45,990 nucleotides of DNA, taken from assembly GCA_029553545.1 (NCBI GenBank), contig JAKPKU010000208.1, positions 1-45,990 on the forward strand, written 5' to 3'. Positions 11,152 to 40,320 of the stretch are shown here, piece by piece (the stretch's first letter is position 1; every line of letters starts with the position of its first letter). This stretch comes from Candidatus Cloacimonadota bacterium. Its GTDB lineage: Bacteria > Cloacimonadota > Cloacimonadia > Cloacimonadales > WRIO01. Under the pieces are notes generated by a model. It worked only from the letters and a program-made list of their open reading frames with translations, did not search any database and was not told the DNA's origin. A program made the position numbers and the translations under genes.

Positions 11152-11436
11152 TAGGGTGCTGCTTAATAAACCAAAATATCTTATAGAAGGATAAAACTGA
11201 ATTAAGATTTAAAACAGAACCTTCTATATATATAGGGCTTATAAAATGGGTTTTTTGAAAAAATATTTTCATCTAAATTAGCAGAAGCCTACTACGAGCG
11301 GGTTTAGAGGTGATTATTTTTTGTGCCAACAACTATCCTTTGTTGGTTCAGATCAATTACATTTCATCTCTCAATCCTAAGCTTTCTGTATTATTAAAGT
11401 CTGCAAACCTGGATTACGCATTATTCGACACTCTCA
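11152..11436 (+). repeat. Dispersed intergenic element, copy A
   Basis: About 285 bp in the divergent gap between lptB and gcvT. It is similar along most of its length to 40040-40320 and to the reverse complement of 28111-28384. Shared landmarks are CTATATATAT, then GCCTACTACGAGCG, then CAACTATCCTT, then GATCAATTACATTTCATC, ending CACTCTC. Two hairpins can form: AACC with GGTT around 11218-11252 followed by a T run, and GCCAAC with GTTGGT at 11325-11347. It has no open reading frame of note. The rest of the 470-base gap holds only the lptB and gcvT promoters. Confidence 0.85.
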
Positions 11437-11491
11437 TGAATCATAAGTGGCGCTAAAATAAACTAAAAATGTAAGGTTACTCAAAAAGTAT

Positions 11492-11520
11492 TTGACAAAA
11501 ATAAGAGATTAAATTACTAT
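11492..11520 (+). promoter_or_regulatory. Sigma-70 type promoter of gcvT-like gene
   Basis: TTGACA at 11492-11497 and TACTAT at 11515-11520 are spaced by 17 nt. An overlapping TATAAT at 11518 has a 20-nt spacer. Transcription would begin near 11527, just before the ribosome site AAGGAG at 11541-11549. Confidence 0.75.
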
Positions 11521-11554
11521 AATTTTAAAATAATATACTATGAAGGAGTTTATA

Positions 11555-12940
11555 ATGACAGTAATCGGAAAACCTTTCCCTACAGAGATTCGCAAGACTG
11601 CGGTTTATGATATTGAAGAATGGTATCAAAAATTATTAGCAGAGAGGCTCGATCGCCCATATCAAGCGATTCAAAGAAGTAATTTTGGACAATATGACAT
11701 GGCAGTTCACTATCTCACCTCTGTTTTAGAAGAAGCGAAAGCAATTGATAAAGTTGCTCTTTTCAATATCGATCATATGGCTCAAATCCAGTTTGCTGGT
11801 AAAGATGCTTGTGCTCTTTTAGATCGCGTTTTGCCTGGTAATATGGGTAGCATGACTATTGGGCAGTGCAAATACACCTTGCTCTTAAATGAAAATGGCA
11901 CAGTACGTGATGACATGATTGTGATGCGGGTTAGTGATGATAAATTTATTCTCGTTATCAATGCTGGACACGACATAACAGGCAAAGAAATAGTCGATAA
12001 TAAAGAAATTACATATCTATCAGACGCAGATTTTATCCTCCAATATAAAAAAGAAGGGGAAGAAGTTTTTGTAACTGACTTGTCTGATGATTTGGTCAAG
12101 ATAGACGTTCAAGGTCCACTTTCAATGAAAGTTATTCGCGAAGTCTTTGGCGATGCTGCTTTAAAGAATCGCAAAAACCCTGACAAATGGATGGGCTTCT
12201 TCTCATTTAATGAAATTGAGATAGATGGACAAACTTTCTATTTTAGCCGTACTGGCTATACAAACCGCTGGGGTTGGGAAATCTATATTCCACATTCAGT
12301 TGGTGTAGATTATTTCAAAAAGCTTATTCTTAATGTATTAGATAAGGGTGGTTTCCTGGTAGGGCTTGGTGGTCGTGATGAAAATCGCCTTTCTGCGGGT
12401 AATGCAGGCTTGCCACTTATGGGCAGCGAATATGACGGACTTCATACTCCAACAAATGCGCCTCTCTTTGATGCAGCTGTTGATATGACCAAAGATACAT
12501 TTGTCGGCAAAGCCGCTCTTGAAAAAGATATTGCAAGTAAATGCGATAAAAAGATGGTCGTTATTATCTCTGAAGGAAATGCTGTTGGTAAGGCTGTTTA
12601 CCTTGATGGAAAGAGATTAGGTTCGATGACTTCGTCAATCATTTCTCCCAATGTCTCCCAAGAAAAGCGAGAATATATCGGAACCACACGTAAGAACGTT
12701 TTAGCAGAAAATGGTACTGCAGCGATCGGTTTAGCTTGGCTGTATAATAATCCTTTTGAAAAAGATGAAAATGGCGCTGATATCGTAGTCAAAGATGACC
12801 AAGCTGTTCGCATTAAAGTCGATCTTTATAAAGAAGTTGATGGACAACCATCAGGCAAACCTATCCTTGGTTATATTAGTGGCGATGGTATCTGTGTTTC
12901 CACTTCTGCCAAAGCTTTGAAAAACATAGAAAATCTATAA
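11555..12940 (+). CDS. gcvT: GcvT-family aminomethyltransferase
   Basis: Tetrahydrofolate-dependent aminomethyltransferase family (T protein of glycine cleavage). The N-terminal folate-binding fold shows NGTVRDDMIVMRV, equivalent to the region with the catalytic aspartate, and the C-terminal half has GRDENRLSAGNAGLPLMG. At 461 residues it is about 100 longer than typical GcvT, with extra sequence at both ends. No gcvH, gcvP or dedicated lpd gene adjoins it, so a distinct folate-linked demethylation or methyl transfer is possible. The start at 11555 uses AAGGAG; an in-frame ATG at 11540 overlaps that site. The DUF3467 gene follows at once. Confidence 0.85.
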   Translation: MTVIGKPFPTEIRKTAVYDIEEWYQKLLAERLDRPYQAIQRSNFGQYDMAVHYLTSVLEEAKAIDKVALFNIDHMAQIQFAGKDACALLDRVLPGNMGSMTIGQCKYTLLLNENGTVRDDMIVMRVSDDKFILVINAGHDITGKEIVDNKEITYLSDADFILQYKKEGEEVFVTDLSDDLVKIDVQGPLSMKVIREVFGDAALKNRKNPDKWMGFFSFNEIEIDGQTFYFSRTGYTNRWGWEIYIPHSVGVDYFKKLILNVLDKGGFLVGLGGRDENRLSAGNAGLPLMGSEYDGLHTPTNAPLFDAAVDMTKDTFVGKAALEKDIASKCDKKMVVIISEGNAVGKAVYLDGKRLGSMTSSIISPNVSQEKREYIGTTRKNVLAENGTAAIGLAWLYNNPFEKDENGADIVVKDDQAVRIKVDLYKEVDGQPSGKPILGYISGDGICVSTSAKALKNIENL

Positions 12941-12958
12941 ATGAACTGGAGACCTTTT

Positions 12959-13276
12959 ATGAATAAACAACAACCACCTCAGCAGCAAACTCTTAATGTC
13001 CAAATCGACCAACAAGTCGGTGAGGGCGTGTATGCAAACTTTTTTATGATAGTTAATTCTGACTCTGAGTTTGTTTTGGACTTCGGTAGAGTCGTACCTG
13101 GAATGCCCAATGCTAAGATCTATAGCAGAGTGATCACAAATCCACAACATGCAAAACAACTCTTAAAGCTTTTGGAAAAGAATGTCGATGCATTCGAAAA
13201 ACAGTTTGGTGAAATAAAAATTCCAAACTTACCAAATCAAGACAATAAGAATATTGGGTTTCATCCTGTAAAATAA
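12959..13276 (+). CDS. DUF3467 family protein
   Basis: Small 105-residue protein matching the DUF3467 pattern: YANFFMIVNSDSEFVLDFGRVVPG, then an ITNPQHAKQLLKLLEKNV helix, and a low-complexity Gln/Pro start. Its function is unknown. The start at 12959 follows GGAGA by 9 nt; a frame-compatible ATG at 12941 abuts the gcvT stop but has no ribosome site. It appears to be the second gene of the gcvT-like transcript and ends at a strong terminator. Confidence 0.8.
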   Translation: MNKQQPPQQQTLNVQIDQQVGEGVYANFFMIVNSDSEFVLDFGRVVPGMPNAKIYSRVITNPQHAKQLLKLLEKNVDAFEKQFGEIKIPNLPNQDNKNIGFHPVK

Positions 13277-13294
13277 CAAAAAATGAATATGAAA

Positions 13295-13320
13295 AAAGGC
13301 AGCTCGAAAGAGCTGCCTTT
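13295..13320. terminator. Bidirectional terminator, DUF3467 and rpsA
   Basis: An 11-bp perfect stem (AAAGGCAGCTC and its complement) with a GAAA/TTTC loop. It is followed by T-rich sequence on the plus strand and a run of six T on the minus strand, so it serves both convergent transcripts. Confidence 0.93.
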
Positions 13321-13336
13321 AATTTTTATATAGAGA

Positions 13337-15274
13337 TCAATCAGTTTCTTCTGTTGGGGTCTCTGGTACTTCTTCGGTTACTGGAGCTGCTTCTACTTCT
13401 ACAGGAGTTTCTTCTACAGGTGCTTCCTCTACAGGTGCAGCTTCCTCAACTTCTGGTTCATGGTATTCAACAGGAGATGGAATTTCAGCATCGTGCATAT
13501 CCATATCATCATCTTGATCGTCAAATTCAGGAGCTGATCCAGTTCTTTCGATAATTCTATCACGATGAATCTTTTGATACTCTTTCATTAAGTTCTTTTC
13601 TCTGCTGAAGAACCAAGCTTTTACGCTCAAGATTAATCTGCGATTATCTTTGTCAATTTCGATAATTTTCATATCGAGTTCTTCATTGACATCAAAGGCA
13701 TCTTCTGGCTTATTAATCTTTGGAACTGCGAGATGAGAAATAGGGATAAATCCTTCTATATAAGTGTCGTCAAAAGGTATATCGACCAAAATTCCTTTTG
13801 TGATGCATTTTGCAATCTTTCCTCTTACTTCAGTATTGACAGGAAGGGTCTCTTCAATGCTATCCCATGGATCTGGGTGTAATTGTTTGATACCGAGAGC
13901 GATACGATGTAATAATCTATCTATTGATAGGACGACAGCTTCAATTTCTTGACCTTTTTTGAGCACTTCTTTTGGATGATAAATGCGTTTTGTCCAAGAG
14001 ATATCAGAGATATGGATCAATCCGTCGATATCTTCTTCTAATTCCACAAAAGCACCAAAATCTGTGAGGTTTTTAATTTTGCGTTTTACAATAGTTCCAA
14101 TAGGATATCTTTCTTCTATAGTGAGCCATGGATCAGGGAACATTTGTTTGATACCGAGTGAGATACGTTGATCATCTTTTGAAACTTTTAATACAATTGC
14201 TTCAACTACTTCGTCTTCTTTCAAGTATTGTTTTGGATTGGTAACTTTCTTTGTCCAGGAGATTTCTGAAACGTGAACAAGCCCTTCAACACCAGGTTCA
14301 ATCTCGATAAATGCGCCATAGTTTTCAATATTTACGACTTTACCTTTAACTTTTGTACCTTCAGGGTATTTATTTTCAATATTTTCCCATGGATGTGGCA
14401 CTAATTGTTTTAAACCGAGCGATACTCTTTGGTTTTCCTCATCATAATTGATTACTTTTACTTTTACTTTATTGCCGATATTGAGCATTTCTGAAGGGTG
14501 TTTAATTCTACCCCATGACATATCAGTCAAGTGCAATAGACCATCAATACCGCCTAAATCAATGAATGCGCCGTAATCAGTAATATTTTTTACTTCGCCA
14601 TCAAGCTCAGCATCGATGATAATTTTGTCTTTGAGAAGGTCCATTTTGCTTTGTTGTTCTTCTTCAAGGACCTGTTTTCTTGAGACAATAATATTCTTTT
14701 TGTCTTCATCAATTTTTATGATTTTTAGTTGGGTTTCTTTTCCAATAAATTGGTCAAGATTTGGTACGTTTTTTAGTGCGACTTGTGAGCCAGGCAAAAA
14801 GGCATCGATACCTAAAACTTCCACCATCATGCCACCTTTAACACGACGCGTGAATACACCTGTAATAATCTCATCTTTGTCATGAATTTCTTGTAATTTT
14901 TCCAGGTTAAGGATAAAATCAGCACGGCGCTTTGATAGTCTTGGCTTACCGCTTCCATCTTCAGATGATACTATATACACTTTGATAATATCATTTTTTT
15001 CAGGTGGTTTGTTGTTAAACTCATTAATAGGGATTGATGCTTCTGATTTTGAGTGGATATCAACAAGCACTTCTCTTTCATTAACACTAACAACTCTCGC
15101 ATCAACAATTTGTTTTGGTTCAACTCTGCTCAAAGATTCATTCAAGAGCTCTTCCATTGTAAGATGTTCAGCGGTCTCAACTGCCTTGCTTTGTTCGTTA
15201 GCTTCGACGATTTTGTTAACTTCATTTTCTTCTGGAATGAGATCCTTTGGGTCTTTTTGATCGTTAACGTTCAT
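13337..15274 (-). CDS. rpsA: 30S ribosomal protein S1
   Basis: mRNA-binding ribosomal protein of 645 residues with six S1 domains. The central ones are recognised by DYGAFIDLGGIDGLLHL, NYGAFIEIEPGVEGLVHV and DFGAFVELEEDIDGLIHI. About 75 acidic residue-rich positions follow the last domain (Glu/Pro/Val/Thr, with repeated PVEE units), and the N-terminal extension is also acidic. AGGAGG precedes the ATG, which lies inside the end of ispH (11-nt overlap). In some clostridia IspH and S1 are fused; here they remain separate but coupled. Confidence 0.95.
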   Translation of the reverse strand: MNVNDQKDPKDLIPEENEVNKIVEANEQSKAVETAEHLTMEELLNESLSRVEPKQIVDARVVSVNEREVLVDIHSKSEASIPINEFNNKPPEKNDIIKVYIVSSEDGSGKPRLSKRRADFILNLEKLQEIHDKDEIITGVFTRRVKGGMMVEVLGIDAFLPGSQVALKNVPNLDQFIGKETQLKIIKIDEDKKNIIVSRKQVLEEEQQSKMDLLKDKIIIDAELDGEVKNITDYGAFIDLGGIDGLLHLTDMSWGRIKHPSEMLNIGNKVKVKVINYDEENQRVSLGLKQLVPHPWENIENKYPEGTKVKGKVVNIENYGAFIEIEPGVEGLVHVSEISWTKKVTNPKQYLKEDEVVEAIVLKVSKDDQRISLGIKQMFPDPWLTIEERYPIGTIVKRKIKNLTDFGAFVELEEDIDGLIHISDISWTKRIYHPKEVLKKGQEIEAVVLSIDRLLHRIALGIKQLHPDPWDSIEETLPVNTEVRGKIAKCITKGILVDIPFDDTYIEGFIPISHLAVPKINKPEDAFDVNEELDMKIIEIDKDNRRLILSVKAWFFSREKNLMKEYQKIHRDRIIERTGSAPEFDDQDDDMDMHDAEIPSPVEYHEPEVEEAAPVEEAPVEETPVEVEAAPVTEEVPETPTEETD

Positions 15275-16166
15275 TTATTTCCTCCTTATAACCGGGAATA
15301 TCATGGACACTTTTTATGATAATGTCTGAGTTCCCAACGATTTTATTTATTTTATTATATACGTCCAAAATAATCCAGTCAGGAGTTGATGCTCCAGCTG
15401 TTAATCCTATGGTATTATGGTTTTTAAACCAACTATCTTCTATTTCATCAGCGGTTTCTATATGATATGTTTTTGTATAATTAGAACATAGAGTGGCTAA
15501 CATTTTTGTATTAGAGCTATTCTTGCCACCAATTACCACCATAAGATCAGCTATCTTTGCTAACTCTACAGTTGCATCTTGTCTAATATTTGTTGCATTG
15601 CAAATGGTATTAAACACTCTTAATTCATTGCAACGATTTATTAAAAACACTACTAATCTTTCCAGGTTTTGTTCATTTTGTGTTGTTTGACAGATGATTG
15701 CACATTTGCCAAATCTGCTGTTTTCAAATCTTGAAAAGTCTTTATTTACAATATGGTATTCATTCTTTATATATGATTTTAAAGCAATTATTTCAGGGTG
15801 CTCTGGATTGCCAAGAATAAAAATTGTATATTTCTCAATATCCGCAAGCTTAGCATAATCAAAAGCTTTTGAAACATATGGGCAAGTAGCATCAATGACT
15901 GGGATCCCTTTGTTTTGCAATTCATTTTTTTCGGTTAAAGGGATACCATGAGATCTGATTACAATTGCCTTGTCAGTCACTTCTGGCATGCTATTAATCT
16001 CCTCAACACCTTTTTCTTTAAGGGCAGAGACCATTTGTGGATTGTGGATAATAGGACCCCAAGTGTTTATGTTTTTATGAATAAGAGCTGCTTCTTCTGC
16101 CATTTTTATCGCCCTTTTTACTCCAAAACAAAAACCTGAGTTCTTTGCTATTAAAATTTTTGTCAT
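15264..16166 (-). CDS. ispH: 4-hydroxy-3-methylbut-2-enyl diphosphate reductase
   Basis: Last step of the MEP isoprenoid pathway, making IPP and DMAPP with a [4Fe-4S] cluster. The 300-residue protein carries the three conserved cluster cysteines: Cys13 in GFCFGVKRA, one in DATCPYVSKA and one in CNATNIRQDA. The loop TAGASTPDW is the family's C-terminal substrate motif. It sits between plsC and rpsA in the well-known cmk-plsC-ispH-rpsA order. Confidence 0.96.
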   Translation of the reverse strand: MTKILIAKNSGFCFGVKRAIKMAEEAALIHKNINTWGPIIHNPQMVSALKEKGVEEINSMPEVTDKAIVIRSHGIPLTEKNELQNKGIPVIDATCPYVSKAFDYAKLADIEKYTIFILGNPEHPEIIALKSYIKNEYHIVNKDFSRFENSRFGKCAIICQTTQNEQNLERLVVFLINRCNELRVFNTICNATNIRQDATVELAKIADLMVVIGGKNSSNTKMLATLCSNYTKTYHIETADEIEDSWFKNHNTIGLTAGASTPDWIILDVYNKINKIVGNSDIIIKSVHDIPGYKEEINER

Positions 16167-16208
16167 ATCTTTGAAATTAATCTTTCTGTTTAAATAAGAT
16201 GATCATCT

Positions 16209-16823
16209 TTATGAAGCCTTATGTTCTGACTCAAAAGAGTTAAGCGCCTTAATCTTTTCAAATATGTCATTCGATATTAATTGATATTTTTCTTTATTGT
16301 CTGCCAAATTATCATAAGATGACAGCATTATTGTTTCACCGATTATTATTTGCACTTTTTTTAATCTGAAGAGACAGCTAAAATGCTTTGTAGAATTTGC
16401 AATATGAACTGGTACAATGTCCTTTTTTACGGCTAATGCAATCATGCCAATGCCTGGTTTTGCCACTTTTCCATTACGTGTACCTTGTGGGAAAATAAGC
16501 ATGGAATGACCATTATTTAAGACGGAAATGCATTTCTTGATAGCGCTAATATCCATCTTGCCACGCTTGATAGGAATTGCATTAAATGTAGATAATATTT
16601 TGCCCATTATTTTGTTTTTAAATAGCTCTGATTTTGCCAAAAAATAGATTTCAAGAGGCAAAACTGATCCTATAAAAGGCGGGTCGAAGTTAGATACATG
16701 ATTAGAAGCAATAACTTTCCCTCCAAGCGTATCTAATCGCTCTTTATTGATGATCTCATAAGGTGCGAATATTTTCATTAAACATCTTATGAATGATGTT
16801 GTAGCCCTATAAATCTTACGCAA
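16209..16823 (-). CDS. plsC: 1-acylglycerol-3-phosphate O-acyltransferase
   Basis: Membrane-associated acyltransferase of 204 residues that converts lysophosphatidic to phosphatidic acid. The catalytic NHxxxxD motif is NHVSNFD (residues 41-47), and the phosphate-binding motif FPQGTRN is near residue 113. It overlaps the end of cmk by 8 nt, so translation is coupled. Paralogues with the same motif can act on other acyl acceptors, but the cluster supports plsC. Confidence 0.9.
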   Translation of the reverse strand: MRKIYRATTSFIRCLMKIFAPYEIINKERLDTLGGKVIASNHVSNFDPPFIGSVLPLEIYFLAKSELFKNKIMGKILSTFNAIPIKRGKMDISAIKKCISVLNNGHSMLIFPQGTRNGKVAKPGIGMIALAVKKDIVPVHIANSTKHFSCLFRLKKVQIIIGETIMLSSYDNLADNKEKYQLISNDIFEKIKALNSFESEHKAS

Positions 16824-17490
16824 CTTTTTCCCTTATCTTTTTTAAAATAAAGTCAACTTGTTCTTCGATTGACATGGTTGTCGTATTAACTTCAACAGCA
16901 TCATTTGCTTTGAGAAGTGGTGCTATATCACGGTTGGCGTCATTTGCATCACGCCATGCAAGCTCTTCTTTTAATTGTTCATAATCTACTTCAAGCCCTT
17001 TTTCTTGCATTTCCAATTGACGTCTTTTAGTCCTTGCATCGAGAGTTGCGACCATAAAAAACTTAAAATCAGCTTTTGGAAATACAAATGAACCTATATC
17101 TCGTCCATCCATTATTACGCTATCATTTTTTGCCATTTCTCTTTGTAGATACACCATACGATGTCTCACATTGGCAATTGTTGCAATTTCTGATGCTTTT
17201 TGGCTCACTTCTGGAGTACGAATTAAGTCGGTTATATCGCGGTTGTTTAAGAATATTAAGTTTTTATTATCAATGGTTTTAAAAAGGATATCAATTTTAT
17301 TTAACATATCCTCTACGCTGCTTACATCCTTGAGATTTGTATTATGCTCTATCGCATATAAAGCGCATGCACGGTACATTGCACCTGTGTCAATATACAA
17401 AAATTTTAATTCTTCTGCCAGCCTTTTCGCTGTTGTGCTTTTACCAGAAGCTGCTGGACCATCAATTGCTATAATAATATTTTTTCCCAT
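16816..17490 (-). CDS. cmk: Cytidylate kinase
   Basis: Phosphorylates CMP and dCMP. The 224-residue product starts MGKNIIIAIDGP and carries the P-loop GPAASGKST at residues 11-19, IDTGAMYRA and MDGRDIGSFVFP, all family signatures. The open frame continues to 17631, but the predicted transcription start near 17511 excludes that extension. ATG at 17490 or 17499 fits best; neither has a strong ribosome site. It is the first gene of the cmk-plsC-ispH-rpsA operon. Confidence 0.94.
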   Translation of the reverse strand: MGKNIIIAIDGPAASGKSTTAKRLAEELKFLYIDTGAMYRACALYAIEHNTNLKDVSSVEDMLNKIDILFKTIDNKNLIFLNNRDITDLIRTPEVSQKASEIATIANVRHRMVYLQREMAKNDSVIMDGRDIGSFVFPKADFKFFMVATLDARTKRRQLEMQEKGLEVDYEQLKEELAWRDANDANRDIAPLLKANDAVEVNTTTMSIEEQVDFILKKIREKVA

Positions 17491-17517
17491 AATACTCATT
17501 TCACTATATAATAATCC

Positions 17518-17546
17518 ATAATATATTTTTAACTCATTTTTGTCAA
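17518..17546 (-). promoter_or_regulatory. Sigma-70 type promoter of cmk operon
   Basis: Minus strand TTGACA (17541-17546), 17-nt spacer, TATTAT (17518-17523). The predicted start is near 17511, leaving a 5' leader of only about 11-20 nt before cmk. Confidence 0.8.
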
Positions 17547-17850
17547 TTACTTTTTTATACAGATGAAAGATTTTTTTATAAATTGAATTAATATCAAATC
17601 TTTTGTTTGATTCATGACCAAAATTACGCATTGAAATGGATTATTAAAATGTAAATATGAGAAATGATCTTCTATTCGTAAAGATTAGGTTAAAGGGCTG
17701 AATATTATGCATATTAGAACACCCGTTATGTCTGAGCTCGAAATATAGTGAAATTGCTACAATTTTGCAAAATAATAAATCAACAAATCTCCATTACTTA
17801 AAAATAAAGATAAAATGGCACGACTCTCTTTACTCTTAAAAATTCTCAAA
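17547..17850. other. Intergenic, nothing recognised
   Basis: AT-rich sequence between the cmk promoter and a repeat. Neither strand carries a convincing gene, RNA gene or terminator here. Confidence 0.6.
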
Positions 17851-17967
17851 AAATCTCCCTTTCACTCCCTTTCGATTCCTTTAAGATTACCTTTCATTCT
17901 CCAAGATAGCAAGGGGAATGTAAAGGGAATCACATAGGCATCTTATTGATATATATGCATATACAAA
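17851..17967 (+). repeat. Phased TTCCTTT repeat element, copy 1
   Basis: Shares a 50-bp identical core (17888-17937) with 43186-43235, and weaker similarity on both sides. Left of the core are four 10-11-bp units resembling TYCCTTTCRA, one per helical turn. Inside the core, CCTTTCATTCTCC can pair with GGGGAATGTAAAGG across a short AAGATAGCAA loop with one bulge. It lies upstream of the FGE lipoprotein promoter. No coding potential is seen. Confidence 0.85.
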
Positions 17968-18110
17968 ATCGAGCATAATTTGAGAGAAAGAAGTGAAAAA
18001 TAGGATCTAATAATAGCATTTATTTGATTTTTTTGAGCACCCAAAATAGCAAAATTTGAACATTTTTTGGATTATTATTTTATTATATGTTAATTATGAT
18101 AAATAATTGC

Positions 18111-18139
18111 TTGACAAATAATTCTTATTCTGCTATAAA
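18111..18139 (+). promoter_or_regulatory. Sigma-70 type promoter of FGE lipoprotein
   Basis: TTGACA (18111-18116), 17-nt spacer, TATAAA (18134-18139). The near-consensus ribosome site AGGAGG at 18156-18161 suggests strong expression. Confidence 0.85.
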
Positions 18140-18166
18140 TTATTACAAGAAAAAAAGGAGGCGGAA

Positions 18167-19048
18167 ATGGTTACCCAAATTGGTAAGAAAGTTGTTTGTA
18201 AAAAAAGTTTAAGGGTTGGTAGGTTGTTAACGGTTTTCACTTTACTTGGTGTGTTATTATTAGTAATAGCAGGTTGTTCGAAGAAGATGCCAGAGAATAT
18301 GGTTTTTGTTAAGGGTGGTACGTTTCAAATGGGAACAGATGAAGTTTTAGAAGTTGGCTTTTTTGATGAACCAGGAGACATGTTTGAAGGAGCTAAGCCA
18401 ACCCACCCAGTTAAAGTATCTTCATTCTATATAAGCAAATACGAGGTAACTCAAAGTGAATGGAAAGATATAATGGGTAAAAATCCATCTACAAATCAAG
18501 GCGATAATTTGCCAGTAGAATCAGTGTCATGGAATGAAGCCGTATATTTTTGCAATCAAAAGTCATTAAGAGAGGGCTTGACACCCGCTTATACAATTAA
18601 TGGTGATGATGTGAGCTGCGATTGGGGCGTAAATGGTTATCGTTTACCAACAGAAGCCGAGTGGGAATATGCAGCAAAAGGCGGAAATAAATCTAAGGGC
18701 TTTTTGTTTGCTGGGTCCAATAACATAAACGAAGTTGCATGGTATACGGGTAATTCTGATGAGGTCACACATGCTGTAGGAACAAAATCACCTAATGAAT
18801 TAGGACTATATGATATGAGTGGTAATGTTTGGGAATGGTGTTGGGATATCGTTGATGAAAATTATTATCAAAATAGTCCTAAAGACAACCCCAGAGGACC
18901 AGAAAAAGGAGATGAACGAGTTTTACGTGGTGGTGCATATGTATTTATCTCTTATGATGGTGAGGATTGCAGAATTCCAGTTCGTTTTCCAACAGAAAGT
19001 GAGGTAAACTTTCCGATTTTTGGATTACGTTTAGCAAGAACAAAATAA
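18167..19048 (+). CDS. FGE-sulfatase domain lipoprotein
   Basis: A 293-residue exported lipoprotein. A basic N-terminus and hydrophobic stretch end in the lipobox LVIAGC (lipidated Cys37). The rest is a formylglycine-generating-enzyme/SUMF1-like fold: GGTFQMGTDE, PVKVSSFYISKYEVTQSEW, PVESVSWNEAVYFCN, YRLPTEAEWEYAAKGG, GNVWEWCWD and RVLRGGAYV. No sulfatase is nearby, and most such bacterial lipoproteins are not proven formylglycine enzymes; some relatives bind peptides or act in surface complexes. It is monocistronic, with a strong promoter and its own terminator. Confidence 0.88.
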   Translation: MVTQIGKKVVCKKSLRVGRLLTVFTLLGVLLLVIAGCSKKMPENMVFVKGGTFQMGTDEVLEVGFFDEPGDMFEGAKPTHPVKVSSFYISKYEVTQSEWKDIMGKNPSTNQGDNLPVESVSWNEAVYFCNQKSLREGLTPAYTINGDDVSCDWGVNGYRLPTEAEWEYAAKGGNKSKGFLFAGSNNINEVAWYTGNSDEVTHAVGTKSPNELGLYDMSGNVWEWCWDIVDENYYQNSPKDNPRGPEKGDERVLRGGAYVFISYDGEDCRIPVRFPTESEVNFPIFGLRLARTK

Positions 19049-19088
19049 GATAAACACATTGTTTTTTTAGCAAAATTTACTATGTAAT

Positions 19089-19150
19089 GCCATATCACAG
19101 TTACTTTAGTTGTGAAATAATCATACTTGGTAATTGAGATATGGCTTTTT
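19089..19150 (+). terminator. Terminator of FGE lipoprotein gene
   Basis: GCCATATC (19089-19096) pairs with GATATGGC (19138-19145), followed by five T. The long loop contains its own CACA/TGTG pairing, so a branched structure is possible. Confidence 0.65.
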
Positions 19151-19193
19151 ATATTGCTAAAATAAAAAAAAACTTCTTGACAAAACAACTTGA

Positions 19194-20699
<1,506 letters not shown>

Positions 20700-20710
20700 A
20701 AAAGAATTTG

Positions 20711-20740
20711 AGCCGTTGGCTATATGCTGACGGCTTTTTT
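20711..20740 (+). terminator. Rho-independent terminator of guaB
   Basis: A 10-bp stem with two GU pairs (AGCCGTTGGC with GCTGACGGCT), a TATAT loop and six T. It ends 11 nt before the next gene's ATG. Confidence 0.92.
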
Positions 20741-20751
20741 AAATAATTAAT

Positions 20752-21654: not shown

Positions 21655-21666
21655 TCTGCTTGTTTT

Positions 21667-21721
21667 GAAAAAACACTCTCCGTCCCTGGAGACAATTAGA
21701 ATCCCTTCTATGTGTTTTTTC
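21667..21721. terminator. Bidirectional terminator, xer and fliW
   Basis: A perfect 10-bp inverted repeat (GAAAAAACAC at 21667-21676 and GTGTTTTTTC at 21712-21721) encloses a second small hairpin TCTCC/GGAGA (21677-21692). Each strand ends in a T run, so it fits the convergent genes. Confidence 0.7.
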
Positions 21722-21723
21722 AT

Positions 21724-22173: not shown

Positions 22174-22189
22174 TTTCTTTCTCCTTCTA

Positions 22190-26686: not shown

Positions 26687-26695
26687 GACATTCTC

Positions 26696-28110: not shown

Positions 28111-28384
28111 GAGGGTGTTGATTAATTCATAATTAAGGTTTACAGGCTTGATGAATACTGAAAACAGAGAACAGAGGGATGAAATATTATTGATCTGAGC
28201 CAGCGAAGGATAATTGTTGGCAAAGAAAAATCATCTCTAAACTCGCTTATAGTAGGCATCTGCTGAAATAGGTGAAAATAGCTTTCGAAAAACACCATTT
28301 TATAAGCCCTATATATATAGAGGGTGATGTTTTTATTTATGATTCTGCTTTATTCTTTTATCAGTTATTTTTGTTACTATGCAA
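28111..28384 (-). repeat. Dispersed intergenic element, copy B (inverted)
   Basis: Its reverse complement aligns with the copies at 11152 and 39995 along most of its length: GCAGATGCCTACTAT, GCGAGTTTAGA, TTATCCTT, CAGATCAAT and the right end AATTAATCAACACCCTC. The left end is lost or diverged near the end of the lamin-tail gene. Hairpins at 28289-28334 (CACC/GGTG) and 28199-28221 (GCCAGC/GTTGGC on the plus strand) match in place those of the other copies but use different bases. It fills most of the gap between the lamin-tail gene and the flagellar promoter. Confidence 0.85.
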
Positions 28385-28418
28385 AAGATTCTTTTTTGTT
28401 TGTTTTTACCTATGAAGG

Positions 28419-30797: not shown

Positions 30798-30821
30798 GCT
30801 GCAAACTAAGCAGGTTCATTA

Positions 30822-31433
30822 TTATTCTATTTCAATCACATATTGGTTATCAATATTCAGCACTGTCGACTCATCTCCAAAGTACTGCACAGCCCCAAAC
30901 TCATCTCTCACTTCAAATTTATAATAAAAATAAGCGGGGTTTTCAAAGTTTACAGTGCAGGCAGGCAGCCTGAACCACTGCGAGCTATTTGGCAAGATAT
31001 CTTCTTCAATTTGTTCGCTGGAAGTATTAACATGATCTGCATAATACTGCTTGTAAAAAAGGCTGCCAATACTCTTGTTTGAATGGTTGATAATCTTGAG
31101 ACTTGCTCTATTTGGATTTAAAAAAGCCTTTAGTGTTTTCCCTGGTTTGATAGTAATTGTAGTTTCAGTGACTTCTTTTTCGCCATCTTCCAAGACAAAT
31201 GCTTCCCCCTCTATTTGGATCAAATAGTCTCTATTTGACGAGCTAAACATCATTTCTTTATCAGTTGTAAGAGTGTGAGTGACTTGTTGCATGCCACTAA
31301 GCACATAATCGTTATTGTTCAAGGTATAGTAGACATTATGTTGGCTTCTGTTTATTATATTAAAATCGCCATCTTTTGCACAAGCTGACAATAGAGTCAG
31401 AGCGACAATGATTATAAAATATGCTTTTTTCAT
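30822..31433 (-). CDS. Lipoprotein of unknown function
   Basis: A 203-residue protein with a clear lipoprotein signal: basic start, hydrophobic core and the lipobox LLSAC. The rest is beta-rich with no motif I recognise (segments such as FNIINRSQHNVYYTLNNNDY). The start at 31433 has GGAG 7 nt upstream and lies 1 nt after the pseudo-receiver gene; a frame-compatible ATG at 31454 lies before that ribosome site. It is probably co-transcribed with its neighbours. Confidence 0.8.
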   Translation of the reverse strand: MKKAYFIIIVALTLLSACAKDGDFNIINRSQHNVYYTLNNNDYVLSGMQQVTHTLTTDKEMMFSSSNRDYLIQIEGEAFVLEDGEKEVTETTITIKPGKTLKAFLNPNRASLKIINHSNKSIGSLFYKQYYADHVNTSSEQIEEDILPNSSQWFRLPACTVNFENPAYFYYKFEVRDEFGAVQYFGDESTVLNIDNQYVIEIE

Positions 31434-31434
31434 T

Positions 31435-32535
31435 TTAATCTCCATATATAGCATTTATATGATTTAAAAGGGTTTTTCCGTTTACGGGTTTGTCTACGAT
31501 CGCTTTAACATTAATCCCCTTAAGGTCGTCGATTTTCAAATCGCTTTGTGGTAATTTTGTTATTATTATGGGGCATTTACTTGTTTTAATTAAGTCAAGA
31601 TGCTCGGTAAGGCTTTCACCATGAGTTAATTCATTGAGTATCAACAAGGCAGGTGGAAATTGTAGAATGGTATCAGGTAAATGTGCGAGGTTTAATATTT
31701 GCACTATTTTAAGCTTCTGCCTTTTTGATAAAAACTCAGTGATATATTCAGTTACAGACATTTTTTCGTCATAAACAATGATGTATTTATGCTCTGGATT
31801 AATTATCTCATAGGTCTCCTCTGGAAGAGCATTATTATGGTTTTCAACAGTGTAAATTAAATTAGGATTATTTCTGGCAAAGTCATAAATAAAATATCGT
31901 TCAATAGCTTGTTTAGCATATTCTGTGTATAAGTATTTCTCAAAGCCAAACACTCCTTTTTGCACCCTGAAAAAAGCTCCAGAAACCATAATACTTTCAA
32001 AAGGCAGTTTTATTTCTATATTATAGATCATTCGACCATTATAATCTTTATAATAGTGTTCAAAGTCAGCTTTGAAATGGATCTCATTCATACTAATAAA
32101 GCTTGCTTTCCTATATTCTGGCAGGTCTTTTAACTTAAAGATTACGCTAATATTGTCCTCTGCTTTAGGCATCACAGTATATGCTTTTTGAGTATATGAT
32201 ATTGTTTGAGGTATTGTAAAGATGTATATTCTTGGGTTTGAGGCAATATCAACTTGGATAAATTCAGCATCAAAATCAATTGAATATTCATCGTAATTAT
32301 AAATAGAGTTGATATGAAAAGTGTAACTATTCTTAGGGCGCAGATTCAGGTTATTTTTGATTGGAGAAAATTCTTTTAAGTAAAGAAACTGAGAGCATTT
32401 TACCAGATTGGACAAAGTAATTCTATTATTTACAGTAGTCGATAAAACATGATTTGATGTAGAAATGTTTTGCAAAAATTGTTCTATGTCATTTCTTTTT
32501 TTGATCTTTTGTCCTGAGTTTTTAGCGAATAACAT
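31435..32535 (-). CDS. Protein with C-terminal pseudo-receiver domain
   Basis: A 366-residue protein. The N-terminal ~235 residues are beta-rich, possibly PilZ/YcgR-like in layout but lacking clear RxxxR and DxSxxG motifs. Residues about 249-366 resemble a response-regulator receiver: acidic pair Asp256/Glu257 (IVYDEK), Thr326 (PIIIT) and Lys349 (VDKP) align, but the phosphoacceptor position is Asn301 (LLILNEL). It probably does not accept phosphate. No ribosome site is visible, and a terminator hairpin for eno lies just upstream. Confidence 0.65.
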   Translation of the reverse strand: MLFAKNSGQKIKKRNDIEQFLQNISTSNHVLSTTVNNRITLSNLVKCSQFLYLKEFSPIKNNLNLRPKNSYTFHINSIYNYDEYSIDFDAEFIQVDIASNPRIYIFTIPQTISYTQKAYTVMPKAEDNISVIFKLKDLPEYRKASFISMNEIHFKADFEHYYKDYNGRMIYNIEIKLPFESIMVSGAFFRVQKGVFGFEKYLYTEYAKQAIERYFIYDFARNNPNLIYTVENHNNALPEETYEIINPEHKYIIVYDEKMSVTEYITEFLSKRQKLKIVQILNLAHLPDTILQFPPALLILNELTHGESLTEHLDLIKTSKCPIIITKLPQSDLKIDDLKGINVKAIVDKPVNGKTLLNHINAIYGD

Positions 32536-32546
32536 TTTTCAAAAGT

Positions 32547-32568
32547 AAGCAGGGCATAAGCCCTGCTT
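32547..32568 (-). terminator. Terminator of eno
   Basis: A 9-bp perfect stem AAGCAGGGC/GCCCTGCTT with a 4-nt loop, 9 nt after the eno stop, followed on the minus strand by TACTTTTG. The U run is imperfect, so some readthrough into the next gene is likely. Confidence 0.75.
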
Positions 32569-32577
32569 TTGTCTTCT

Positions 32578-33873
<1,296 letters not shown>

Positions 33874-33876
33874 TTA

Positions 33877-34824
33877 TTATTGTTTAAATATTTCACTTAA
33901 TGATTTTATTGAACCTAATAAAGCGCTTGATTCATATGGCAATACAACTGTTTTGTCGCCCTTTTGAATCAAATCACCAAAGGCATTAATATATTTTACT
34001 GCAAGCATATAGTGTGCAGGGTCTGTCTTGGTAGATTCCACAGCAACTGCCACTTTTTTGATTGCTTCAGCTTCGGCTTGAGCTACGATTAATTTAGACT
34101 CAGCTTGTCCTTCTGCACGTGTAATAGCTGCAATTTTATCACCTTCAGCAACAGTAACTTGCGCCTGTTTTTCACCTTCAGCATCGAGTATTTTTGCTCT
34201 CTTATCTCGTTCTGCTCGCATTTGTTTTTCCATTGCTGCACGTATTTCACGTGGTGGATTAATGTCTTGCAATTCCACACGATTCACCTTAACTCCCCAC
34301 TTATCAGAAGCAACATCGAGGATATCTCTCAGCTTGGAGTTGATTGTATCTCTTGAAGTTAAAGTTTTATCAAGATCAAGTTCACCAATCACGTTACGCA
34401 AGGTTGTTTGAGTTAATTTCTCGATAGCATCAGGCAAATTATTTATCTCATAAATAGCCTTGAAAGGGTCTGTCACTTGAAAGTAAACTAATGCATTGAT
34501 CTCAATTGACACATTATCAGAGGTAATCACATTTTGCTTTGGGAAATCATAGACTGTCTCACGCAGATCCATGCGATGTGCCACTGTTTGTTGGATATAC
34601 TTATTTCCTTTAAAGTCTTCTTTCACATAGCGCCAATTGAAATGACGTGGTTTATCTACGACGGGCCAAATAATATGCAAGCCACTTGTTAGCGTTTTAT
34701 GATAGCGACCGAGTCTTTCTACAATTATTACTTCAGCTTGTTGGACAACTTTCAATCCTTTTGATGCAAGAATTAGCACAAAAATAATCAACACGATTAT
34801 CATATAAAAGCCTGATAAAATCAT
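33877..34824 (-). CDS. SPFH-domain protein (stomatin/slipin-like, QmcA type)
   Basis: Membrane-anchored SPFH protein of 315 residues. One N-terminal transmembrane helix is followed by the SPFH domain (VVQQAEVIIVERLGRYHKTL...) and a charged Ala/Glu/Lys coiled coil (KILDAEGEKQAQVTVAEGDK, then AEGQAESKLIVAQAEAEA). Such proteins form large oligomeric membrane cages. It overlaps nfeD by 4 nt, the usual slipin-NfeD pairing. Confidence 0.93.
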   Translation of the reverse strand: MILSGFYMIIVLIIFVLILASKGLKVVQQAEVIIVERLGRYHKTLTSGLHIIWPVVDKPRHFNWRYVKEDFKGNKYIQQTVAHRMDLRETVYDFPKQNVITSDNVSIEINALVYFQVTDPFKAIYEINNLPDAIEKLTQTTLRNVIGELDLDKTLTSRDTINSKLRDILDVASDKWGVKVNRVELQDINPPREIRAAMEKQMRAERDKRAKILDAEGEKQAQVTVAEGDKIAAITRAEGQAESKLIVAQAEAEAIKKVAVAVESTKTDPAHYMLAVKYINAFGDLIQKGDKTVVLPYESSALLGSIKSLSEIFKQ

Positions 34825-35261
34825 TTTTCCTCCTTTGGTATAACGATTGCCTTATTACCTTCTATTTCTGTAATTGTGACTAATGTCCCTTCTTTAATCT
34901 CATCAATATCAATCTCAAAAACAGCAGACCATTCTTCGCTATCTATTTTGACATATCCTCTGCCATTTCTGGGAATAGTTTTTGTAACGATACCATGTTT
35001 ACCAATTAGTGCAAAAACATTACTTTCTGCTGAATCTGGTCTGATAATTGTTTTTGCAAATCTTTTCATTAATAAAAAAGATAGGAAAGTAGCTATTGCA
35101 TAAATTGCTAATTGCACCAACGTATAATCTTCTAAGAAATAAGCCAATAAACCTGTCAAGATTGCTCCTGTTCCAAAGCTAAAGAAAAAGAAGCCAGGCG
35201 TGAATATTTCGATAATGAAACAGATAATTCCAAACGCTATCCATGCAATCCATGCTGTCAT
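34821..35261 (-). CDS. NfeD-family membrane protein, short form
   Basis: A 146-residue protein with about three transmembrane helices (to roughly residue 65) and a C-terminal OB fold (IGKHGIVTKTIPRNGRGYVKIDSEEWSAVF). It lacks the protease domain of long NfeD. It pairs with the SPFH protein encoded next to it and probably assembles with it in membrane microdomains. Confidence 0.92.
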   Translation of the reverse strand: MTAWIAWIAFGIICFIIEIFTPGFFFFSFGTGAILTGLLAYFLEDYTLVQLAIYAIATFLSFLLMKRFAKTIIRPDSAESNVFALIGKHGIVTKTIPRNGRGYVKIDSEEWSAVFEIDIDEIKEGTLVTITEIEGNKAIVIPKEEK

Positions 35262-35273
35262 ATTACCCTCCTT

Positions 35274-36212
35274 TTATTTTTTATTTTCTGTAGAGGTAAC
35301 CTCTGTTTTTTCTCCTGTTGTTGGATCTTTATAGATTCTCTTTACTTTTCTTTTACTATTACTTCCGTATCTACCGTAGCTATAGCCGCCATAGCTACTG
35401 GAAGAACCATATTTATAGCTGCCATAAGACTTGCCTCCGCCCTTACCTTTAGATGTGCGAATACCAAGAATGGACATAAGAACCAAAATACCATTAATCA
35501 CAAAAAGAATAACAAAAGTGCCAATTATTAAACCAATAAGTGCAACACCAAATGTTACAGCAATATTAGTCGATTTAGAAAACAAACTTTTGATTGCTGA
35601 GGGCTTTGTACCGATACTCAAAAACAGCAAATTGTTCTGCTTATTATGATTAACTGTCTTTAGTTGAACTTCCAAGCTATCAATAGTTTTTTGGACAAGA
35701 TTCAAACTCTCTCTAAGTCTATCAGATGTATAAGCTTGTTTAGTTTTTTCAAGATCTGTCAAATACTTGTTTTTTAATTTGATATTGATATCAAGTCTTT
35801 GTTGTAAATCAGCATCAAATTCAGCGTTTTTCTTTGTGTCTTCTTTTTTATTTCCAGCGCTTGGATAATTGCGTATTTCAGACAAAATGTCATCATAATC
35901 TGATTCATTTATCTCTGCTAAAAACACTAATGATGTTGCTGATTGTTCTTTTTTTAAGACGCTGACTGTCTCTTTACTGCTGATATTGTCAATCATTTTC
36001 AAAAAAACTGATAAACTATCTACATTAAACTCTATACTCGTACGTATAAAATTAGATGACTTATTAAATTCCCGTTTGGTCTCTTTAGCTACGCTATTCT
36101 CACTGTCTTTGCCTCGGAAAAAGTTAGTTCTTGCTAACAAAACAGCCCCTAATATAATAACTACTGCAATTAATAGTTTAAATTGTCTTGAGAATTTTAA
36201 TCTCATATTCAT
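35274..36212 (-). CDS. DUF4349-like membrane protein with Gly/Ser/Tyr tail
   Basis: A 312-residue protein with an N-terminal membrane anchor (about 10-27), a periplasmic region with a coiled coil (about 130-185: LKNKYLTDLEKTKQAYTSDR), and a second transmembrane helix (about 217-245). The cytosolic tail is low complexity (KGGGKSYGSYKYGSSSSYGG) and ends basic/acidic. The layout fits DUF4349 proteins, though I am not certain. The ATG overlaps the recN stop (ATGA), and nfeD follows 12 nt later. Confidence 0.7.
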   Translation of the reverse strand: MNMRLKFSRQFKLLIAVVIILGAVLLARTNFFRGKDSENSVAKETKREFNKSSNFIRTSIEFNVDSLSVFLKMIDNISSKETVSVLKKEQSATSLVFLAEINESDYDDILSEIRNYPSAGNKKEDTKKNAEFDADLQQRLDINIKLKNKYLTDLEKTKQAYTSDRLRESLNLVQKTIDSLEVQLKTVNHNKQNNLLFLSIGTKPSAIKSLFSKSTNIAVTFGVALIGLIIGTFVILFVINGILVLMSILGIRTSKGKGGGKSYGSYKYGSSSSYGGYSYGRYGSNSKRKVKRIYKDPTTGEKTEVTSTENKK

Positions 36213-37915
36213 ACTTTTTTATCTCCTCTTTTCAATAATTCTTTTGCATGGTTGAGTGAGCTTTCGGATAAATCACCAGAAAGCATTCTGGCTATCTCAT
36301 CTTGTCTGTTATTCAGATCCAGCTCTTCAACTTTAATCTCTGTAATTTCACCCTGGTTATCTTTTTTGATCAGATAGTGATTATTTGCATAAGAAGCGAC
36401 TTGTGCAAGGTGCGTAATGCAAATAACTTGATGATATTCACTGATCTTTTGTATATACTGTCCAAGCATATCTGCTGTTTTGCCCCCAATACCAGAATCA
36501 ATCTCATCAAATATTATCGTCTGTGGAGGCAAGTTTTCTGCTAAAATCTTCTTTATCACCAAAAGCAATCTTGATAATTCACCTCCTGACGCAGAATGCT
36601 TTAATGACTGAAGCTGACCTCCTTTATTAGCATTAAATAAAAACTCCACTTGATCATAACCCGTTTCTTTTATATTCACAACTATGTTTAGTTTATCATT
36701 ACAAAAACCTTCGATCTTGTCAACTACTATTTTAATATTTGCTTCAGGAATTGCTAAATCTTGCAAATTTTGTTCTATTTCATAAGCAAATGCCGTTGCT
36801 GCTTGAGTTCTTTGCTTGCTTAAATACTCAGCCTTTTCTTGCATATCTTTGCCTAATTGTTCTATTTCTTGGGTGATTTTGTTGATTTTATCTTTTTGTG
36901 ATTGATGTTCTTGTAAATAGCTCTGCATCTCTTCTTTAAATTGTATAATCTCGGCAATACTTCGCTTATACTTATTCTTGATATTGAGCAATGCTTTTAG
37001 CCTCTCTTCAACCTCGTCAAGCCTCTCCTGATCAAGATAGATCTCCCCTGGCACTTGTCTGGATATCTGAATCAAATCATCAAAATGCACTAAAATAGAG
37101 TCCAAATGCTCACTTTGCTCTCCGATCAACTTATTTAACTTGGCAAAGTGCGTAATACTATGTGCAAAAGAAGATATTTGATCATAAATTGAGTTTTCTC
37201 TTTCATAAAAAGTATCATTTAGCTCTTGATTTATATCCAAAATCTCTTGGGCATTATTTAATACCTGATATTCTGCGTCCAAATCCTCTTCTTCTTCAAC
37301 TTTCAGCTTCAACTCTTCAATTTCATTAATCTGATACTCGTATAGTCTAATCTTATCTTCGCTCTTTTTTTCATCTTCAATCAGCTTTTTATGCTCGCGT
37401 AGCTTGCTTTGATAGTTATAATAGACCTTAGAAAATTCCTCTCTCTCTTTACCAAGCTTCGCAAAATGATCAAGACATAGCAGTTGAAAATCCTCATTTA
37501 ACAGTAATTGTTGATCTCTTTGCCCATGGAAATCAAAAAGTGAATCTCTAAACTCTTTAATAATAGCATTTGTCACTCTGCGCCCATTTAGAAAAGAAGA
37601 CGACCTTCCATCAGGCTGTATCTCTCTTAAGAAGAATATCTCGCCTTCGCTTGTATCTATTTCATACTTTTCTATCAATCTGTTCAACTCTGCATTATGC
37701 TTATTAATCGAAAAAATGGCTGATAAGCTTGCTTTTTCTTGCTGATTTCGTAGTATATTTCCCTTTGCTTGTCCTCCCATGATCAAGTGTATCGCACCAA
37801 CAATTACCGATTTACCTGCGCCAGTCTCGCCTGTCAATGCTTGAAATCCCTGAGAGAAATCAAGTTTTAATGATTTTACTAAAATAAAGTTATTTAATTC
37901 AAGATAATTTAACAT
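36209..37915 (-). CDS. recN: DNA repair protein RecN
   Basis: SMC-like ATPase of 568 residues acting in double-strand break repair. It has Walker A GETGAGKS (29-36), long coiled-coil arms around residues 150-370, signature HSASGGELSRLLL and Walker B TIIFDEIDSGIGG. It lies between nadK (8 nt upstream) and the DUF4349-like gene (4-nt overlap). nadK-recN is a common pair. Confidence 0.96.
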   Translation of the reverse strand: MLNYLELNNFILVKSLKLDFSQGFQALTGETGAGKSVIVGAIHLIMGGQAKGNILRNQQEKASLSAIFSINKHNAELNRLIEKYEIDTSEGEIFFLREIQPDGRSSSFLNGRRVTNAIIKEFRDSLFDFHGQRDQQLLLNEDFQLLCLDHFAKLGKEREEFSKVYYNYQSKLREHKKLIEDEKKSEDKIRLYEYQINEIEELKLKVEEEEDLDAEYQVLNNAQEILDINQELNDTFYERENSIYDQISSFAHSITHFAKLNKLIGEQSEHLDSILVHFDDLIQISRQVPGEIYLDQERLDEVEERLKALLNIKNKYKRSIAEIIQFKEEMQSYLQEHQSQKDKINKITQEIEQLGKDMQEKAEYLSKQRTQAATAFAYEIEQNLQDLAIPEANIKIVVDKIEGFCNDKLNIVVNIKETGYDQVEFLFNANKGGQLQSLKHSASGGELSRLLLVIKKILAENLPPQTIIFDEIDSGIGGKTADMLGQYIQKISEYHQVICITHLAQVASYANNHYLIKKDNQGEITEIKVEELDLNNRQDEIARMLSGDLSESSLNHAKELLKRGDKKV

Positions 37916-37923
37916 CTATTCCT

Positions 37924-38817
37924 CTAAATCTTACCCATATTCAACTTTTTTCTCAAAATCTGATAAAAAGTCTTATGAGATAGTTTTATAAAGCTCATCT
38001 TTTTATTCGAGCGTTTTATTATAATCTTATCCTTTGACTGCAATTGCACTATATTTATCCCATCAACCTGTAAAACAGTGGATGAATGTGGCTCTTCAAG
38101 CTTGAATTGCAAGGTATTTTCTGCATTAAACACCATGGGGCGAATAGACAAAACATGCGGACTCAATGAGTTTACGACCATAGCCTCCATATCTGGTGAA
38201 ATAATAGGTCCACCAGATGACATTGAATAGGCGGTCGAGCCCGTCGGTGTAGAGATAATTATCCCATCACAACGTGCCTTATAAACATAGCGCTTATTTG
38301 AAAACAACCTAATTGTAATCAACTTAGAAAGCTCGCCCTTATAAATCACAGCATCATTTAGGGCAGGCATATCGACGATTTTGACTCTATTACGATAGAC
38401 AGACACATCCAAAAGCATGCGTTTTTCTTTCTGATATTTACCCTTTAATAGATTATTTAATGAGGGTATCAAATCTTCAATATTACCATCAGTCAAAAAC
38501 CCCAATTTTCCCATATTAAAGCCTAAAACAGGCGCATTCATCTCCAGAGTAAAGTGCATTGCACGCAAGATTGTGCCATCGCCTCCAAAGACTAATATAT
38601 AGTCTGGCTGAACATGAGACACTCGTTGATCCTTCTGCAAATCAGTTATTCTTATTGCACTTTCGCATGCATCTTTATTTTGTAAAATACATGGTTCTAA
38701 TTCTTCGTCTATATCGAATTGATAAAAATAACAACTCTTTGCAAAATTGTTCATCAACTCTTTGATAATGCTCTCTACATCAACATTAATCCTAAAAACC
38801 AAAGCGATTTTTTTCAT
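37924..38817 (-). CDS. nadK: NAD kinase
   Basis: Phosphorylates NAD to NADP. The 297-residue protein carries the GGDGT motif (78-82), NMGKLGFL, and the glycine-rich TPTGSTAYSMSSGGP loop that binds NAD. Its ATG overlaps the rsgA stop by 4 nt, so translation is coupled. Confidence 0.96.
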   Translation of the reverse strand: MKKIALVFRINVDVESIIKELMNNFAKSCYFYQFDIDEELEPCILQNKDACESAIRITDLQKDQRVSHVQPDYILVFGGDGTILRAMHFTLEMNAPVLGFNMGKLGFLTDGNIEDLIPSLNNLLKGKYQKEKRMLLDVSVYRNRVKIVDMPALNDAVIYKGELSKLITIRLFSNKRYVYKARCDGIIISTPTGSTAYSMSSGGPIISPDMEAMVVNSLSPHVLSIRPMVFNAENTLQFKLEEPHSSTVLQVDGINIVQLQSKDKIIIKRSNKKMSFIKLSHKTFYQILRKKLNMGKI

Positions 38818-39899
38818 AAAGACTCCACAATTCTTAAATAAGACTCATATCTCTCTGTTGGTATTTCCGTTCCTACATGGTCAAGCACGGCACAATGTTC
38901 TTCATGAGTATGACTGCAATCAGGGAAAAAACAAAACTGTGCATAGTGTGCAAACCCCGGGAAATTCATGGGCAAAAGGTTCTTATGTTCTGCACTCAAG
39001 GCAAGTGTTTTAATACCTGGTGTATCGATCAAATGCCCTCCAAAAGACCAATCTATCATCTCAGAATGACTGGTAGTATGTTGCCCTTTATGATGCGTTA
39101 GGCTCACATCTCCAACTTTTAATTGTAAGCTTGGCTCGATAGCATTTATTAATGAGCTCTTCCCCGTACCAGAATGTCCAGTAAACACGCTATCTTTGTT
39201 CTTAAGCATTGATTTTAATTCTTCAATCCCAAAATTCTCCTGCTCTTTATTGGCTGTAGTAAAAACGACTTGATAGCCATTTATTTCATAATACTTACAT
39301 TCTTCTTTAATCGCATCCAAATCTTCGGCAAGGTCAACCTTATTGACACAAATCGCAGCATTTATTTGACTTATCTCTGCAAGGCATAAATATCGATCTA
39401 TCAATCCTGAGTTAAAAAATGGGTTATTACATGAAACAACGATTATTATCTGATCAATATTTGCGACAATTGCAATCTCGCGTTCCATGTTGGCGCTGCT
39501 CACATAGCGTGATAGACTATTTCTGCGGGGCTTAATTTCTTCAATACGATAATTATCTTTCTCTTGCATATCAATCATCACATAATCACCCACGCAAACA
39601 GGATTATGGCTTTCAAACTCCAAATAGCGCAAACGACCACTGAGCGTGCAATTACTCAAAACCCCATTAATATTTACAACATAAGAATAATTGGTCTGCA
39701 TCAGCACAATTCGCCCCTCGACCAAGTCAAGATTACTCTTTTGTGAAAACCTGCCACGATCATAAGTTCGTCTAAAAGTTTTAGTCTGACTCTCATCTTT
39801 CTCTTGAAAATCATATATGTCATCTAAATCTTCTACTTGGGTGTTTTTCAATTTAACTCCCTTCCCTCTTGTGACGAACTTATCTCTCTTTTTATTCAT
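38814..39899 (-). CDS. rsgA: Ribosome small subunit-dependent GTPase A
   Basis: Circularly permuted GTPase that aids late 30S maturation. The 361-residue protein has a basic N-terminus, an OB fold (about 60-130), G4 NKVD before G1 GHSGTGKSSLINAI (the permuted order), and a C-terminal zinc site (CFFPDCSHTHEEHC). The start at 39899 has GGAG 8 nt upstream; the longer GTG start at 39908 overlaps it. First gene of its operon. Confidence 0.95.
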   Translation of the reverse strand: MNKKRDKFVTRGKGVKLKNTQVEDLDDIYDFQEKDESQTKTFRRTYDRGRFSQKSNLDLVEGRIVLMQTNYSYVVNINGVLSNCTLSGRLRYLEFESHNPVCVGDYVMIDMQEKDNYRIEEIKPRRNSLSRYVSSANMEREIAIVANIDQIIIVVSCNNPFFNSGLIDRYLCLAEISQINAAICVNKVDLAEDLDAIKEECKYYEINGYQVVFTTANKEQENFGIEELKSMLKNKDSVFTGHSGTGKSSLINAIEPSLQLKVGDVSLTHHKGQHTTSHSEMIDWSFGGHLIDTPGIKTLALSAEHKNLLPMNFPGFAHYAQFCFFPDCSHTHEEHCAVLDHVGTEIPTERYESYLRIVESL

Positions 39900-39918
39900 T
39901 AGTTGCACTCCTAAATTC

Positions 39919-39947
39919 TAAATATTAAAAATGCCTTTACGTGTCAA
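39919..39947 (-). promoter_or_regulatory. Sigma-70 type promoter of rsgA operon
   Basis: Minus strand TTGACA (39942-39947), 17-nt spacer, TATTTA (39919-39924); +1 near 39912, leaving a leader of about 13 nt. Confidence 0.8.
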
Positions 39948-39994
39948 TAAAATTGTATTAGTTTTTTTTGTGTTTAAAATTCGACATCTGCTTA

Positions 39995-40320
39995 GAGGGT
40001 GAACATTATCATGCAAAGCCTACTAATTAAGAATAAGGCATGAGGCTGTTTCATAGTAAACAAAATAGCTTATAAAAGAATAAAGCAGAATCATAAATTA
40101 AATCAACCCCCCTCTATATATTGGCAGGACAAAATGGGGGTTTTTAACTATTTTCATCTAAATCAGCAGATGCCTACTACGAGCGAGTTTAGATGTGATT
40201 TTTTTTCGTAACAACAACTATCCTTAATTGAATGAGATCAATTACATTTCATCTCTCAATTCTCAGCTTTCAGTATTATTCAAATCTGTAAACCTGAATT
40301 ATGTATTAATCAACACCCTC
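39995..40320 (+). repeat. Dispersed intergenic element, copy C
   Basis: Longest copy of the element. The part homologous to the other two runs from about 40040. GAGGGTG at 39995 and CACCCTC at 40314-40320 form possible terminal inverted repeats. Internal landmarks are GCCTACTACGAGCGAGTTTAG, CAACTATCCTT and GATCAATTACATTTCATC. A hairpin AACCCCC/GGGGGTT at 40105-40142 followed by T resembles a terminator. It occupies most of the gap between rsgA and the small membrane protein, together with the following block D. Confidence 0.85.

Follow-up and report, generated by a model that had tools for sequence, protein, structure and literature searches.

The closest described systems are the IS-derived bacterial MITEs, i.e., Correia in Neisseria, MITEAba12 in Acinetobacter, BrickBuilt in Porphyromonas and the QMITEs in Coxiella. 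The element analyzed here resembles them in being short, AT-rich and gene-less, in having terminal inverted repeats and target duplications, and in occurring in many, mostly intergenic copies that nest (PMC10969869). In pneumococci, the intergenic repeats BOX, RUP and SPRITE are small and occur in clusters, inserted in each other, SPRITE being terminator-like (PMC10969869). In a full-text search of the open-licence literature, no study of MITEs in Cloacimonadota came up. Judged by its termini, target duplication, copy number and partner IS, the present element appears to be a new family of the usual bacterial MITE kind.

The window, by which we mean the whole stretch of 45,990 nucleotides that was analyzed, comes from a Candidatus Cloacimonadota bacterium (assembly GCA_029553545.1, contig JAKPKU010000208.1). 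A sequence-only reading of this DNA had described three non-coding intergenic copies of one element; indeed, three intergenic, gene-less repeats are present close to the places and strands given there, although several boundaries were corrected (Table 1). The same reading had proposed a search of the genome for more copies, and the family extends far beyond three. With copy A as the query, at least 41 matches were found in the host genome (2.88 Mb, 268 contigs), the others being 76 to 85% identical; the best 40 of 165 candidates were scored in full, so that 41 is a lower bound. A profile run over the fetched sequence returned 83 hits, counting partial ones, of which exactly three fall in the window. 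The consensus MITE is about 281 bp long and has no gene inside. No match to the element was found among viral contigs, phages or plasmids.

Table 1. Coordinates of the MITE copies, their parts and neighboring features in the window.
Feature	Coordinates	Strand	Remark
MITE copy A, full length	11152..11435	+	Flanks ATTAA / ATGAA, 4/5 bases alike
Left terminal inverted repeat, copy A	11152..11161	+	TAGGGTGCTG; family consensus GAGGCTGTTG
Core repeat in copy A	11215..11322	+	Also found outside MITEs
Hairpin 1 of the sequence-only reading, copy A (AACC ... GGTT)	11218..11252	+	Covariation unsupported
Hairpin 2 of the sequence-only reading, copy A (GCCAAC ... GTTGGT)	11325..11347	+	Not conserved as a stem
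Right terminal inverted repeat, copy A	11426..11435	+	CGACACTCTC; consensus CAACACCCTC
MITE copy B, full length	28111..28391	-	Left end decayed, GAATCTTTTG; no TSD recognizable
Core repeat in copy B	28222..28328	-	
MITE copy C, full length	40042..40320	+	Abuts decayed fragment of second IS5-like element; no TSD recognizable
Left terminal inverted repeat, copy C	40042..40051	+	GAGGCTGTTT
Core repeat in copy C	40103..40206	+	
Right terminal inverted repeat, copy C	40311..40320	+	CAACACCCTC
Decayed 5' fragment of second IS5-like element	40320..40441	-	End GAGAGCTTTGAATTAGAAA; directly adjoins copy C
tmRNA gene	42619..42961	-	
tRNA gene	43700..43772	+	

The MITE is bounded by an imperfect, 10-bp terminal inverted repeat (GAGGCTGTTG / GAGGGTGTTG), and its consensus ends are GAGGCTGTTGCATAGTA and, reverse complemented, GAGGGTGTTGATTAATG. 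Inverted termini had been suspected from GAGGGTG and CACYCTC at the ends of the copies. The inverted termini are real, but the GAGGGTG at 39995, earlier read as the start of copy C, is no element end, the true left end being the GAGGCTGTTT at 40042. The end pattern was present at 145 sites in the host genome compared with 5 for a reversed-pattern control, and at 9 sites compared with 3 in a congener, Candidatus Cloacimonadota LW2 Bin 16_7. For 34 full-length copies, identity between the two flanks at 5 bp was 0.61 compared with 0.41 after shuffling (z 5.4; 0/2000 shuffles), while no excess was seen at 3, 4, 6, 7 or 8 bp, and perfect 5-bp duplications were found at 7/34. A young, 315-bp subfamily has a mutual identity of 93 to 95% and still-fresh duplications. 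No clean empty site of copies A and B was found in the congener, since the genes flanking them lie apart there.

A candidate source of mobility resides in the same genome. At the start of contig C117 lies a DDE_Tnp_1 transposase fragment whose best model is the IS5 family NF033581; its score of 109.9 falls short of the curated cut-off (140), because the assembled part is C-terminal only. No complete transposase could be read, as the IS is broken across contigs. IS ends GAGGGTGTTGCATAGTC and GAGGGTGTTGAATAAAG, near-identical in sequence, were found at 5 and 8 contig ends, respectively, and the IS is present in at least 8 copies. On C117, the GAGGGTGTTGAATAAAG end, but for one substitution, runs straight into the transposase, and we take this transposase to belong to the IS with ends GAGGGTGTTGCATAGTC and GAGGGTGTTGAATAAAG. 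These correspond to the left and right ends of the MITE, respectively, with the same left-right asymmetry. When contigs C92 and C32 were joined around one IS copy, minus a duplication ATAAT, an open frame was restored that, by eye, ends in a FlgD-like domain, and at contigs C62 and C130 an IS duplication TACTT was seen by eye; the 5-bp duplication is thus common to MITE and IS. The earlier suggestion of a MITE-like mobile element with terminal inverted repeats was borne out by copy number, termini, 5-bp target duplications and the partner IS.

Our preferred reading, which we hold with high confidence, is that of a gene-less MITE with the ends of an IS5-family IS that is probably moved in trans and carries an older core repeat. 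The MITE has the termini of the resident IS5-family insertion sequence, GAGG(G/C)TGTTG-, and the IS transposase would most likely mobilize it in trans, a step that we infer because MITE and IS have common asymmetric ends and 5-bp duplications; a transposase of the C117 type is the most likely agent. Insertion duplicates 5 bp at targets that are rich in AT and lie mostly between genes; a recurrent one is the TATATATA of the element's own core. The central part, about 105 bp, would be an older dispersed repeat that the MITE now carries. In a separate observation, the partner IS was found to have given rise, by internal deletion, to a 101-bp derivative at one locus (L050, G000:C235:3603-3703), which is flanked by a perfect 5-bp duplication (AAGTT) and is a second, younger MITE type.

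Seven separate IS or MITE ends start within the TATATATA of the core (contigs C7, C44, C91, C93, C148, C173 and C185; loci L044, L070, L057, L046, L062, L049 and L073, respectively), which looks like an insertion hotspot. With this part of the core as a recurrent target, the elements nest in one another. It was also observed that the GAGAGCTTTGAATTAGAAA end of the second IS5-like element, which adjoins copy C, lies beside or within other MITE copies (L021, L190, L192, L193 and L195), and the second IS5-like and MITE families therefore nest mutually.

In the sequence-only reading, paired changes between the hairpins of the three copies had been taken as a sign of selection, i.e., of a mobile element whose hairpins are maintained as structured RNA or as a cruciform. 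Some single copies do fold well. However, with dozens of copies covariation did not rise above chance, an outcome that the sequence-only reading itself had named as refuting it: an R-scape-like test of our own making, run against a phylogenetic null, detected no significant covariation between columns, whether among 45 elements, among 109 cores or among 35 diverged order-level sequences, and its best-scoring positions were linked by subfamily. We also used an arm-swap test, in which the pairing strength of a copy's own two arms is compared with that of arms dealt out between copies, on six stems, and in each genome 1275 arm pairs were scanned. For hairpin 2, own arms paired no better than shuffled ones (z -0.2; 44 copies). 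For hairpin 1, own arms paired slightly better in the host genome (z -2.2; 6/400), as selected structure would have it, but subfamily structure alone can produce such a z value; elsewhere, z was +0.8 in the congener and +0.8 at order level. These tests have limited power on young copies, but the order-level set of 35 diverged sequences was flat too (z 0.07 and 0.80). The remaining stems showed nothing consistent, and the arm-pair scan was negative or within noise.

Folding gave the same outcome, with zero common pairs in RNAalifold and folding z-scores near zero (-0.7 and -0.2). Rfam, raised earlier as a source of an alternative identity, gave no match. The paired change that had been seen in hairpin 2 between copies A and B did not hold up either: none of the 44 copies examined has a stronger duplex than copy A (-10.9), which is why the three-copy sample misled, and the GCCAAC/GCTGGC of copy B includes an A.C mismatch. 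CCCTCT/AGAGCGGG and GCCT/AGGC, two other pairings that seemed promising on inspection, failed when tested as well. On present data, the RNA-structure claim is largely refuted, and we consider it very improbable that the hairpins are selected as structured RNA or cruciform.

The core itself (about 105 bp, element positions about 60 to 168) also exists without the MITE arms. It is more conserved (0.925) than the arms (0.88 and 0.84) and ends in a T run. In the host genome at least 65 core matches were counted, those inside MITEs among them, and the congener has 43; the host total, like that of the family, is a lower bound. The copies are flanked by unrelated sequence, and in both genomes they lie in either orientation to the genes. 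Other genera of the order also carry the first approximately 45 bp, in the form CCCTCYATATATATA..GG..RACAAAA; genomes G068, G054 and G079, which were outside the model-building set, matched this motif at E values of 3e-10 to 3e-6, weaker order-level matches being near chance level. No target duplication was detected at core-only copies, on which ground we rejected a core that transposes by itself and duplicates its target, and no stable or conserved fold of the core was supported by RNAalifold or the folding z-scores.

Two further observations concern the surroundings and forms of the core. Only a few bases after many of the cores come wordy filler repeats (ACGCAGATTACGC, AACAGCGAACTACAACGAAC, CACAGAGAAACACAGAG and CAACACACC), in the host genus as well as in distant genera of the order (L241, L242, L243, L229, L152, L155, L161 and L164). 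The congener contains tandem core pairs, as well as two core forms, ACGCAGGACAAAA and ATGCGTCCGAAAA, in one genome (L034/L037 and L035).

One frame of the core is without a stop in 44/69 copies, as might be expected for a remnant of coding sequence. However, the 34 differences between the host and congener consensus sequences are split 12/12/10 over the codon phases, with no codon-phase bias, and on this ground a coding core was ruled out; such an origin is scarcely credible. The core is conserved as sequence, neither as base-paired structure nor as a reading frame.

We regard the core as a putative older dispersed repeat, mobile or functional, that is now MITE-borne. It might be a functional DNA or RNA site under selection (protein-binding site, promoter or terminator), of which the MITE merely spreads copies. 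The higher conservation of the core than of the arms, the high copy number in two species, the presence of the first approximately 45 bp in other genera and the T run at its end would fit such a site, but the mixed orientation to genes in both genomes and the absence of a stable or conserved fold argue against it, and the species-specific forms suggest amplification over site-by-site conservation; we therefore find a selected site doubtful. A cis-regulatory leader of fixed orientation was ruled out by the mixed orientation.

The evidence is about evenly balanced on whether the core is an independent old mobile element, or its relic, that spread before the MITE captured it. The 43 congener copies with unrelated flanks, the species-specific sequence forms and the occurrence of cores in both orientations point to mobility, whereas core-only copies have no detectable target duplication and no mobilizing protein was identified. 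Taken as a whole, we propose only tentatively that Cloacimonadota have in this core a DNA unit not described before, functional or mobile, which was kept across genera, was amplified to dozens of copies in one genus, was captured by the MITE and is now being redistributed by it.

What had appeared to be a new structured RNA element now looks like a MITE family of the ordinary sort, for which a partner IS was identified, and the case illustrates that three copies picked by eye can suggest a covariation that is absent from dozens. The remaining puzzle is a dispersed motif whose primary sequence is kept across several genera of uncultured bacteria and which is repeatedly used for insertion. With respect to known systems, the transposase fragment places the resident IS among the IS5-family insertion sequences (NF033581), and the ends of this IS are those of the MITE, while the MITE differs from such an IS in having no transposase gene. 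REP elements and BIMEs are likewise dispersed, short intergenic repeats of high copy number in both orientations, but the present core is about 105 bp long and a short palindromic hairpin unit is not supported. Mutual insertion is shared with BOX, RUP and SPRITE, and the T runs are at first sight SPRITE-like, although a stable terminator fold is unsupported in the present element. Compared with Correia, MITEAba12, BrickBuilt and the QMITEs, to which it is likened by description, not by sequence, the present family has a Cloacimonadota IS5-family partner and 5-bp duplications, and the middle of the MITE is a repeat that also exists alone.
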